Source: Frigoriglobus tundricola (lineage in GTDB: Bacteria > Planctomycetota > Planctomycetia > Gemmatales > Gemmataceae). Taken from it: a stretch of DNA of 64,000 bases. Position 1 is the first letter of the stretch; each line of letters starts with the position of its first letter. The notes below the pieces were generated by a model. It worked only from the letters and a program-made list of their open reading frames with translations, ran no database searches and was not told the origin of the DNA. The stretch is taken from the NCBI RefSeq assembly GCF_013128195.2, contig NZ_CP053452.2, forward strand, positions 3,596,001 to 3,660,000, in the 5' to 3' direction. The position numbers were made by a program, and so were the translations under genes. Below, in pieces: positions 12,877 through 36,673 of this stretch.

Positions 12877-14514
12877 ATGTTTCACCGCTTGTTCCGTCCG
12901 GAAACCGTGTTCTTCCTGCTCACGTGGCTGGGGCTCACGGTGGCGTTCCGCGACCGCGGGTTCTACGACCCCGGGGCGCTCTGGCACGTGAAGGTCGGCG
13001 AAATCATCCTCGACCGCGGCATCCCGCAGACGGACCCGTTCAGTTACACGTTCGAAGGCCAGCGCTGGGTGCCGCAGCAGTGGGGCGCGGAAGTGCTGAT
13101 GGCACTCGGGCACCGCGCCGGCGGCCTCGACACGATGCTCCTGGGCTTCACCGCCGGCGTGGCGCTCCTGTACGCGCTCATCTTCCGCCGCGCCGTGCAA
13201 GGCGGGATGGGACCAATCCTCGCGGGCGTGATCGTGGGCGGCGTGCTGTGCGTCGGCGCGTTCCACTACTTCGTCCGCCCGCACATGTTCACCATTGCGT
13301 TCCTCGGCTGGACGATGATGTGCGTCGTCGATTACGAGCGCGGCCGCTGTACCGAGTGGCGCCTCGCGGGTCTGATCCCGCTGTACGTGCTGTGGGTGAA
13401 CCTGCACGGCGGCGTCCTCGGCGGCACGATGACGCTGGGCCTGGCCGTCGCGGGGTGGGGCATGCTCTTTCTGGCGAACGGCCGGCGTGAGCCGGCTGGT
13501 GAGGCGTCGGCGCAAAATGACGCGCCGACGCCTCACCAGCCGGCTCACGCCGGCCGTTCGCCCATCCGCTCCTGGCGCACCGCCCTCCTCCTCGTCGCCA
13601 TCGTAGCCGCGTGCGGGCTGACGCCGTTCGTGAACCCGCACGGCCTGGAGATGATTCGCATCTGGCAGCGCATCGTCGCGTCGAAGGTGCTGCCGGAAGT
13701 GGTGAACGAGCACATGCCGCTCGACCCGACCTCGCCGCTCGGGCTCACGGTCGTCGCGCTCGGCGTGTTCTACCTCGTGATGCTCGCGGGTACGCTCCCG
13801 AAGGCGCCGCGCGTGAGCTGGTTGATCCCGCTGGTCTGGTTCGCGCTGAGCTTCAAGGGCATCCGGCAGGGGCCGCTGTTCGCGGTGTGCGCGTGCGTCG
13901 CGCTGGCCGACCTGTGGAAGCACACGCTCTGGCACCGTTTGCTCGTGAAGCACGGCGACGGCTCGACCGCGTGGGACGCGGGCAACGCCGCCGAAGCCGC
14001 GACCCGCACCGGGGCGCTCGGGACCGCCTTCGTGGTGCCGGCGCTCGTGGTGCTGCTCGCGGTCGTGCTGCAAGTGAACCGTGTGGAAGCGCCGGTGCTC
14101 GGCAGCGGGTGGGCGCGGCTCGATCCCAATTTCATTCCGTCGGACATGACGCGCGAAGTGACCGAGTACGCGGCGAGCGTCCCCCCCGGCACGCCGATCT
14201 TCAACGACGCGAACCTCGGCGGCTACCTCATCTACCACACGCCGAACCTGAAAATCTTCATGGACGACCGGTGCGAGTTGTACGGCGACGACTGGATTCG
14301 CGCGTACTCGGACACGCTCGGGCTCCCGCCGGAAAAGCTCGGCCCGGTCTTCGAGGAGTGGGCGCAGCGCTACCAGTTTCAGCGGGCCATCGTGATGACC
14401 AACCCGCCGGAGCGGGAGCAGCCGTCGATCGAGCGGTACCTGTCCGGCACGCCCGCGAAGTGGCGCGAGGTCGCCCGCGGCAAGCGCGCGGTGATGTTCG
14501 AACGCGTTCCGTAA
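12877..14514 (+). CDS. Polytopic membrane protein with soluble C-terminal domain, GT-C-like
   Basis: A 545-residue protein with about ten hydrophobic helices over its first 400 residues and a soluble C-terminal domain. The segment after helix 1 (FRDRGFYDPGALWHVKVGE) carries acidic residues in the place GT-C glycosyltransferases use for catalysis, and the repeated DP..W.H pattern resembles bacterial membrane mannosyltransferase-like proteins. The C-terminal part (GTPIFNDANLGGYLIYH) recurs in planctomycete proteins of this type. A perfect 41-base inverted repeat lies inside the gene at 13473-13562 and adds about 30 Ala/Pro/Arg-rich residues between two membrane helices without breaking the frame. 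GGAAG lies upstream of the ATG. Function is not established. Confidence 0.7.
   Translation: MFHRLFRPETVFFLLTWLGLTVAFRDRGFYDPGALWHVKVGEIILDRGIPQTDPFSYTFEGQRWVPQQWGAEVLMALGHRAGGLDTMLLGFTAGVALLYALIFRRAVQGGMGPILAGVIVGGVLCVGAFHYFVRPHMFTIAFLGWTMMCVVDYERGRCTEWRLAGLIPLYVLWVNLHGGVLGGTMTLGLAVAGWGMLFLANGRREPAGEASAQNDAPTPHQPAHAGRSPIRSWRTALLLVAIVAACGLTPFVNPHGLEMIRIWQRIVASKVLPEVVNEHMPLDPTSPLGLTVVALGVFYLVMLAGTLPKAPRVSWLIPLVWFALSFKGIRQGPLFAVCACVALADLWKHTLWHRLLVKHGDGSTAWDAGNAAEAATRTGALGTAFVVPALVVLLAVVLQVNRVEAPVLGSGWARLDPNFIPSDMTREVTEYAASVPPGTPIFNDANLGGYLIYHTPNLKIFMDDRCELYGDDWIRAYSDTLGLPPEKLGPVFEEWAQRYQFQRAIVMTNPPEREQPSIERYLSGTPAKWREVARGKRAVMFERVP
13473..13562. repeat. Perfect 41-bp inverted repeat inside a coding sequence
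   Basis: Arms 13473-13513 and 13522-13562 are exact reverse complements with an 8-base spacer (AAAATGAC). The insert is read in frame as NGRREPAGEASAQ...PAHAGRSP in a loop between membrane segments. The outer 24 bases of one arm recur at 14655-14678 inside the next gene, so this is a mobile or recombining palindromic element, not a chance hairpin. Confidence 0.9.
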
Positions 14515-14632
14515 CGGGCCGCCCGATCGGTGCGGACCGAGTTTTCACTTAGGACAAGCGGACAGAACCTACCCCCCGGCCCCCTTACCCGAATCCGCCT
14601 GTCGGTCGCCCCCGCGGCCGAAGGGTGAAGCG

Positions 14633-15262
14633 TTACTGGGAGTCGGCCCCACCGGCCGGCTCACGCCGGCCGTTCGCCTCGAACGTCGCGAGCCGGGCCG
14701 CCAGCCTCTCCTTCACCTGCGGCCACTCCGGCGCGGTGATACTAAACACGACCGTGTCGCGGATGCGCCCGCCGCGGGTGATCGCGTGCGCCCGCAGCAC
14801 GCCCTCGCGCGTCGCACCCAGCTTGGCAATCGCCGCTTGCGACCGCGTGTTGAGCAGGTCCGTGACGAGCTGCACGCGGTTCAGCCCGAGGGCCTCGAAC
14901 GCGTGCGCGAGGAGCAGGAACTTGCACTCCGGGTTCACGGCGCCGGCCCACTGGTCCGGGCGGTACCACGTCCAGCCGATCTCGACGCGCTTGTGCAGCG
15001 GGATCGGTTCGATGTAACTCGTCGCGCCGATCAGTTCCTCGGTCGCGAGGAGCCGCACCGCGTAGGGCAGCCGCTTCCCGGCGGCGCGGTGGGCGAGCGC
15101 GTCATCGAACACGCGGTCGAACTCCGGACCGCGGCCGTTCACCGGCATGAACTGCCACACCCGGTCGTCGTCGCCCGCGGCGCGCAAGCCGGCGCGGTGT
15201 TCCTCCGCGAACGGTTCGAGCCGCACCCACCGGCCGGTGAGAACCGGCGCCGTGATGTCCAT
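14633..15262 (-). CDS. RimJ/RimL-type GNAT acetyltransferase
   Basis: A 209-residue GNAT protein of the RimJ/RimL (Acetyltransf_3) group, which acetylates amino groups of proteins, peptides or small molecules using acetyl-CoA. Typical features are the opening VLTGRWVRLEPF, the segment IGATSYIEPIPLHKRVEIGWTW, and the late motif NTRSQAAIAKLGATREGVLR, which forms the acetyl-CoA-binding end of the fold. The last residues (EANGRREPAGG) are encoded by a copy of the palindromic repeat at 14655 and look like a late addition to the C-terminus. Convergent with the preceding membrane protein gene. Confidence 0.87.
   Translation of the reverse strand: MDITAPVLTGRWVRLEPFAEEHRAGLRAAGDDDRVWQFMPVNGRGPEFDRVFDDALAHRAAGKRLPYAVRLLATEELIGATSYIEPIPLHKRVEIGWTWYRPDQWAGAVNPECKFLLLAHAFEALGLNRVQLVTDLLNTRSQAAIAKLGATREGVLRAHAITRGGRIRDTVVFSITAPEWPQVKERLAARLATFEANGRREPAGGADSQ
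14655..14678. repeat. Partial copy of the 13473 palindrome arm
   Basis: These 24 bases (starting GCCGGCTCACGCC) are identical to the outer part of the right arm of the repeat at 13522-13562. Read on the minus strand they encode NGRREPAG at the very C-terminus of the acetyltransferase, the same peptide the left arm encodes in the neighbouring membrane protein. Confidence 0.85.
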
Positions 15263-16229: not shown

Positions 16230-16338
16230 GGCGGGGGCTCGGTGGGAAGAGGTGGGGGAATTTTACACGACGGAGCGCATCGCGTCTTGTAGGCGCGGGC
16301 GCGGCGCTCCTACGATGACGCAGGTCAGAAGCAGGCCG

Positions 16339-16441
16339 ACCCCCGGCCCCTCCCTGAAGCGAGGGGAGAAAGAAGTGGCGTGGCTTCTGTCTTTCTCCCG
16401 CTCTTCTCTTGCTCCCCTCCCTTCAGGGAGGGGCCGGGGGT
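16339..16441. repeat. Inverted repeat pair of the CCCTTCAGGG-core family
   Basis: Arms 16339-16368 and 16412-16441 are reverse complements with about one mismatch; each is itself palindromic around CCCT(T/G)(C/A)AGGG. They flank about 43 bases rich in TTCTC. The right arm ends 22 bases before the ATG at 16464, so the hairpin would lie in the leader of that gene. The same family occurs at 5843 and inside mfd. Confidence 0.75.
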
Positions 16442-16463
16442 GGGTTGCCTTGGAACGTTTTCT

Positions 16464-36496: not shown

Positions 36497-36673
36497 GGCG
36501 AGCGGGGGGCGTAAGCCCCCGAGTCTACATTGCCGCCCCGAGTCTTTCGAAACGATTGAGGACACGTCAACGCGCGTGTACGCGTTTACGTGTCCTTGGG
36601 GGGCGCCCGTCGGGGGCACCGTAATCGCCCGTAGCGAGCGGTTTCCTCGGGGGGCTTACGCCCCCCGCTCGCC
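36497..36673. repeat. Inverted repeat of the GGCGAGCGGGG family
   Basis: Arms 36497-36523 and 36646-36673 (starting GGCGAGCGGGGGGCG when read inward) are almost perfect reverse complements, separated by about 120 bases that include the smaller hairpin-like ACACGT/ACGTGT pair. The element fills the gap between the Uma2 gene and the 3' end of the prolyl oligopeptidase gene. A related single arm is at 51753-51781. Confidence 0.75.

Follow-up and report, generated by a model that had tools for sequence, protein, structure and literature searches.

A perfect palindrome that lies in frame within the gene of a polytopic membrane protein is a REPIN-like non-autonomous repeat, one member of a family dispersed in Gemmata-type bacteria, and in three genes (those of the membrane protein, an FAD-linked oxidase and UvrA) the contents of the loops in which such repeats are found change from species to species. 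The palindrome was met in a window of 64,000 nucleotides (the whole stretch of DNA that was analysed), in which the following features are relevant.

12877 to 14514, + strand: open reading frame (ORF) of 545 aa for a membrane protein (called polytopic by eye), containing ...LANGRREPAGEASAQNDAPTPHQPAHAGRSPI..., with the palindrome in a length-variable loop
13473 to 13562, no strand assigned: inverted pair of 90 bp (30 codons), a perfect palindrome of GGCGAACG-GCCGGC-GTGA-GCCGGC units, in frame inside the membrane protein
13473 to 13502, + strand: left 30-nt unit of the pair, encoding ANGRREPAG
13533 to 13562, − strand: right 30-nt unit of the pair, from the right arm, whose + strand reading gives the membrane protein a second peptide, HQPAHAGRS
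14633 to 15262, − strand: GNAT acetyltransferase ORF of 209 aa (PF13302, 3.6e-17), ending ...FEANGRREPAGGADSQ
14649 to 14678, − strand: single unit that makes up most of the repeat-encoded C-terminal tail of the GNAT protein, NGRREPAGGADSQ
36497 to 36673, no strand assigned: second pair of the same architecture, with stem GGGGGC and loop GTAA, between predicted genes

A hairpin repeat in two adjacent genes and elsewhere

The arms of the palindrome (13473 to 13513 and 13522 to 13562, 41 nt each with 8 nt between them) were 100% complementary, and a third copy, of 24 nt and identical to the outer arm (14655 to 14678), stood in frame at the C terminus of the adjacent GNAT gene, exactly as a preliminary description of this DNA had it. 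Both proteins contain NGRREPAG because a single DNA unit is translated in one of the frames that it leaves open; at other copies, other frames are used. The description had also held that the repeat adds a loop to one protein and a tail to the other, and this agrees with the orthologues: close GNAT orthologues (68 to 82% identity), present in 8 of 40 other genomes, lacked the tail in every case (8/8), and palindrome-free orthologues of the membrane protein exist. A Pfam search with the membrane protein gave no match at E ≤ 0.001. Taken as RNA, the 90-nt palindrome had a predicted fold of −104 kcal/mol (z −18.3).

The 20-mer GCCGGCTCACGCCGGCCGTT occurred three times in the window (13477 to 13496, − strand; 13539 to 13558 and 14655 to 14674, + strand), a number reached in 0/100 shuffles (mean, 0.09). 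That the palindrome is a dispersed repeat, as had been claimed, was confirmed by a genome-wide search for the 20-mer, with 10 exact copies (reversed-pattern control, 0). The window's genome (9.86 Mb) further held 11 exact copies of the 16-nt core GCCGGCGTGAGCCGGC (control, 1) and, with one mismatch allowed, 38 matches (control, 9). The core was present in 12/41 related genomes, namely 11 of the 19 of the genus (counting that of the window) and one from a second genus of the family, and exact core copies per genome of the genus ranged from 0 to 78. A covariance model of the unit matched 16/19 genomes of the genus at E ≤ 0.01, with counts that are lower bounds, 150 candidates having been scored per genome. 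A scan of public genomes for a 20-mer gave at least 120 loci. Among the 80 listed, two were clearly non-planctomycete (Mesorhizobium and an actinomycetote) and were excluded from the counts, and the others were titled planctomycete or Gemmata or came from one MAG titled 'Bacterium isolate SCN18...'; 40 further loci were counted on sequence match, titles aside.

The unit is a 30-nt hairpin composed of the head GGCGARCG, a stem of 6 to 8 bp and a 4-nt GNNA loop (mostly GTGA or GTAA), often followed by YGGTG; rows of the unit alignment had been selected for the head, and most copies retrieved with the 16-nt core alone likewise carry it. Units were single at 140 of 244 places and formed inverted pairs at 104, the pairs having sharp ends (inverted repeats of about 28 bp) around spacers that vary in length and sequence. 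Stem families were GCCGGC/GCCGGC, GGGGGC/GCCCCC, GGGGAC/GTCCCC, GCGGGC/GCCCGC, GCCGAC/GTCGGC and GCCAGC/GCTGGC. Among 38 distinct units, whose rows had been picked for paired stems, standard pairs made up 99.0% of cells (88.3% in shuffles, 0/500 as high) and 24 cells showed double changes (5.3 in shuffles, 0/500 as high), with 4 stem pairs carrying a double change (2.6 in shuffles; 11/500); further pair types were not above shuffles (255/500). Another palindromic repeat of the window (16336 to 16444; 38-nt arms, 92% complementary; CCCTCCCTGAAGGG, LPEGKG type) is of the same kind as the inserts of the membrane-protein loop in genomes G007 and G008.

Placement of copies and their junctions

Of the 244 distinct places, 176 were intergenic; at 35 the stop of a gene fell in or next to the element, and at 1 a start did. 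The remaining 32, within an ORF, divided into 19 internal, 5 C-terminal and 8 N-terminal cases, the last being possibly due to misplaced starts. These counts were made with a home-made codon-usage gene finder, omitting loci of <1200 bp and 39 further places visible only within 320 bp of a locus end; an earlier, smaller count of 143 copies by different rules had 108 of them intergenic, 27 end-overlapping and 8 coding. The same finder scored as coding 84.7% of the window and 77.4% of loci L267 to L442, which bear elements, so ORFs, with 32/244 copies, are under-used. Of the earlier proposal that insertion into reading frames is tolerated or favoured, the first half therefore stands and the second does not, and the in-frame copies look like tolerated by-products.

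Genes neighbouring an element were convergent in 60 cases, codirectional in 121 and divergent in 11, compared with 81, 374 and 106 at element-free junctions, a bias toward gene 3' ends (Fisher P of 1e-6 and 5e-6). Gene stops fell at +18 of the element (22 times, the stop lying inside the unit) or at +1 (15 times), and one frame of the unit runs into a stop, TGA or TAA, at a depth of 18 nt. In-frame hosts included UvrA (two sites), SMC (two sites), a RecD-like helicase, TrmD, an HrpB-like helicase, a polyprenyl synthase and an FAD-linked oxidase, all named by eye from sequence except the last, for which Pfam was run (PF02913). In genome G011 (loci L412 and L413), SMC and UvrA each carried in-frame units at two places of one protein.

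Across 416 distinct ends, positions −4 to −2 were strongly biased (T, C/T, C/T; chi-square of 133 to 154, 3 df), and TYYN preceded 114 of the ends; over 26 control offsets its count averaged 15.1 and never exceeded 22. Within a pair, the two ends carried TYYN independently (both in 10 pairs, one in 56, none in 53; n = 119). The target duplication that had been looked for did not appear: duplications of 4 and 5 nt were found in 0/104 pairs, identity of flanks over 3 nt was at chance level (2 pairs; 1.7 expected), and identity over 2 nt was seen in 12 of the 104 pairs (6.8 expected; 19 to 23 of 500 shuffles as high). Insert length as a clean multiple of three, tried as a general rule, held for the membrane-loop dimers (6/6) and was broken by other in-gene dimers, of 70, 85 and 91 bp besides 69 and 126 bp.

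Many intergenic copies lay at orthologous sites in two or three species, and many copies are therefore old and persist long after insertion; movement was observed for no copy, which counts against mobility. At deep orthologous sites (L134/L198/L333 and L009/L307), both ends were nearly identical and the spacer and intergenic flank had diverged. We do not claim these conserved ends as proof of selection, since the loci had been fetched by end patterns.

Loop contents across species

For the membrane-protein loop, sequence from all 19 genomes of the genus was compared (G000 being the window's). GGCGA-type palindromes filled it in 7 of them, with the GCCGGC stem in G000, G013 and G018, GGGGGC in G011 and G016 (in the latter with the right end only on the contig), GGGGAC in G014 and another stem in G015. 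LPEGKG-type inserts or their remains were present in 4 (G006, G007, G008 and G010), AAGTC-type repeats in 2 (G001 and G002), a native duplication in 1 (G009) and no insert in 4 (G004, G005, G012 and G017). The G003 gene (L210) lacked the loop at a short CCTGGCG, and its frame was changed; this may reflect loss of the palindrome or an assembly fault or collapse. The draft contigs of L212 (G016) and L217 (G006) start in or just before the insert-bearing loop, and inserts may for that reason be undercounted in MAGs. After the palindrome of G013 (L213) came a diverged duplicate of the adjoining segment (SPIRSWRAALLGTIVTARELMPC before SPIRSWRTAFLL).

The six complete GGCGA-type copies in this loop began at the same nucleotide, 17 nt after the start of a conserved TGGGG, and measured 90, 90, 90, 75, 75 and 78 bp, all multiples of 3. 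Loop content was at odds with the gene tree, built from the C-terminal part of the membrane protein, in which 10 of 17 inner branches have support of <80: sister species had other palindromes at this place, G018 and G011 being sisters (98/96) with different inserts, and G013 grouped with G008 and G010 (100/100) and differed from both in its insert.

The FAD-linked oxidase loop, read in 16/19 genomes, contained GGCGA-type units with at least three stems in 7 (G003, G011, G016, G001, G004, G014 and G015; that of G004 is a right end only), a degenerate unit in G002 and other repeat-like inserts in 6, with none recognised in G012 and G017; the start position was nearly the same in several stems. 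At the first UvrA site, read in 15/19 genomes, there were GGGGGC pairs in G011 and G000 and GGGGAC in G005. Here G009 had a degraded copy, G015 another palindrome and G007 an LPEGKG-type insert; G008, G010 and G013 had a SELRAP-type insert, and six genomes had none. The second UvrA site had a GGGGGC unit in G011, G000 and G001 and related, partly decayed ones in G005, G009 and G014. All three genes were picked for a seen insert and thus say nothing on the frequency of shared positions.

Dispersal of the other inserts was assessed by 14-mers in 1.8 Mb of loci. By this measure no dispersal was evident for LPEGKG inserts (5 loci) or the FAD-oxidase insert of G015 (8 loci), compared with up to 7 loci for coding controls, nor for AAGTC, GCGGAAC, AAGGATG and similar inserts. 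For GCCGGC and GGGGGC, the high 14-mer counts (up to 242 and 63 loci) are in part circular, much of this DNA having been fetched by those patterns, and the dispersal of these two therefore rests on the genome-wide exact-pattern searches with their controls.

By eye we had suspected that spacers at shared sites were homologous, as a change of stem in place would leave them, and comparison with pooled spacers did not support this. The score of the best pair, G000/G013, was reached by 21/135 pooled spacers (3/300 shuffles), that of G018/G011 by 38/136 and that of G000/G018 by 119/135; for the junction pair L036/L391, the score of 16 was reached by 19/136 pooled spacers and 77/300 shuffles. The membrane-loop spacers thus lean toward repeated insertion or full replacement over slow rewriting, which may nevertheless have occurred, and they do not account for the shared start nucleotide. 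The weak TYYN preference alone fails to explain starts at the same nucleotide in different species.

Explanations, known systems and a mobilising enzyme

We consider the following account, taken as a whole, to be probably correct. The REPIN-like repeat most likely spreads as single-stranded DNA by way of a putative hairpin-recognising transposase acting in trans, and would insert next to TYYN without target duplication. Its copies have lasted mostly at the 3' ends of genes, with fewer inside ORFs, and those within proteins would be retained as passenger peptides in loops or tails that are permissive. In the three genes such loops are reused, with different palindromes at the same position in related species. 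More tentatively, and with somewhat less than an even chance of being right, the units may constitute a new REP super-family (GGCGARC head, GNNA loop, TYYN target) served by a putative single-stranded-DNA enzyme, whose copies and unrelated palindromes would time and again displace one another at the same nucleotide in a small number of permissive loops, or landing pads, so that protein segments turn over between sister species.

A single old insertion in the membrane protein, with stem and spacer later rewritten in place by conversion or template switching, would explain why six orthologues with four different stems (G000/G013/G018; G011; G014; G015) start 17 nt after the same TGGGG at lengths that are multiples of 3, why the FAD-oxidase units start at nearly one position in several stems, and why the G000 and G013 spacers are somewhat alike by shuffles. 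We nonetheless regard it as rather unlikely, in that spacers of shared sites were no more alike than those of other copies and close relatives carried unrelated repeats or none at the membrane-loop site. It is also unlikely, to a degree that we would put at about one case in five, that the units are fixed terminator-like or mRNA-end hairpins, under selection and hardly mobile: the TYYN junction signal, the in-frame copies in UvrA, SMC, the RecD-like helicase and other proteins and the wide range of exact core copies across genomes of the genus speak against such hairpins, to which the 3'-end bias would be suited, as would the ends kept beside diverged spacers and flanks at deep orthologous sites (in part an effect of the end-pattern fetch).

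The inverted-repeat ends around variable spacers could be read as the terminal inverted repeats of a MITE of a conventional insertion sequence, and the slight excess of 2-nt flank identity is in keeping with this. Such an origin is highly improbable in view of the lack of duplications of ≥4 nt, the chance level at 3 nt, the predominance of single units (140/244) and the absence, by eye, of any inward-facing pair 300 to 6000 bp apart among the sites listed for G013 (48), G008 (20) and G010 (27). Ancestral native protein sequence with no insertion is scarcely credible. It would fit the occurrence of the palindrome at the same place in 2 of 18 same-genus orthologues of the membrane protein, with NGRREPAG in G013 as in G000 and NGRRQPAG in G018; it is contradicted by the recurrence of the DNA unit in unrelated genes as well as between genes, by the missing tail in the close GNAT orthologues and by loop content that departs from the gene tree. 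The observation that the preliminary description had named as fatal to insertion, the same peptide at the same place in distant genera, was not made in the 41 genomes searched.

Like REPs and REPINs, the family consists of dispersed stem-loops of 20 to 40 nt that form inverted doublets and are mostly extragenic near gene 3' ends. REPINs, or REP doublets, as presented by Bertels and Rainey (2011; PMC3116915), are likewise spaced inverted doublets of short palindromes, hairpin-forming, dispersed and mostly extragenic; the present family differs in its GGCGARC head and in that no proximal transposase was found. Di Nocera and others (2013; PMC3733652) describe planctomycete REPs, stop codons supplied by REPs, copies within ORFs (that of uvrA among them) and, in two Xanthomonas species, distinct REPs at roughly one site of recB; in-frame REPs and REP-supplied stops are thus already published for other bacteria. 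Their GTAG- or CGTC-tagged REPs resemble our family in compensatory stem families, dimers, 3'-end location, supplied stops and in-ORF copies. The tag, GGCGARCG at the head, is neither GTAG nor CGTC and lies outside these two published super-families, and, compared with what those pages report, the shared positions here extend to three genes across a genus and include palindromes outside the GGCGA type. Rickettsia palindromic elements (RPEs; PMC10969869) also lie in frame in unrelated protein genes; nearly half of the copies in one species and 11/12 in others are in ORFs, a large share compared with the 32/244 obtained here by home-made gene calls. The target site duplication of MITEs was absent from 104 pairs, and no RAYT/Y1 gene flanked by the repeat, as in a REPtron, was seen at 30 Y1 loci. 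Because its tag, missing transposase and turnover at shared positions differ, we class the family as a variant of the REP/REPIN kind. An open-licence PMC literature search gave no paper on the present repeat in Gemmata among the matches listed.

Loop reuse by different palindromes is the part worth following. It provides a natural series in which one protein loop is filled, species by species, with unrelated palindrome-encoded peptides, even in the conserved UvrA, and makes directly testable the question of whether selfish palindromes feed protein evolution or are merely tolerated. The family is, moreover, a hairpin repeat that lacks a known transposase, and some Y1 genes of the genus are flanked by other hairpins.

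Y1_Tnp genes were present in 16/19 genomes of the genus, with 7 in the window's genome. No family unit stood beside Y1_Tnp at the 30 loci fetched (of 80 rows), with flanks of up to 1.5 kb; the only matches there were at L067, with 6 mismatches, and at L050, where GGCGAGC preceded an unrelated stem. G008 had 16 core copies and no Y1_Tnp match. An adjacent Y1 transposase as mobiliser is ruled out for the 30 loci seen, and an unlinked or extinct enzyme is possible. The nearest lead for an enzyme is the class 3 TnpA-Y1 genes with CnGA-footed hairpins, from systems given in PMC6006769 as principally those of Planctomycetes, Acidobacteria and Proteobacteria. These resemble the present family in non-GTAG foot hairpins, high copy number in one host and, in part, the same phylum; they differ in the CnGA foot and in hairpins that flank the gene, compared with a GGCGARC head and 0/30 flanked Y1 loci. 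Other GGC-GTN-GCC hairpins did occur at 6/30 Y1 loci, in 2 to 5 copies at four of the six. At L054, L070, L074 and L075, Y1 genes (DHVH, Y---Q type) lay near clustered CCCAGGGC-GTCA/GTT-GCCCTGGG-like hairpins, which share the inner GGC-GTN-GCC, not the head, with the family unit; Y1 loci with clustered hairpins look like a separate REPtron-like system.
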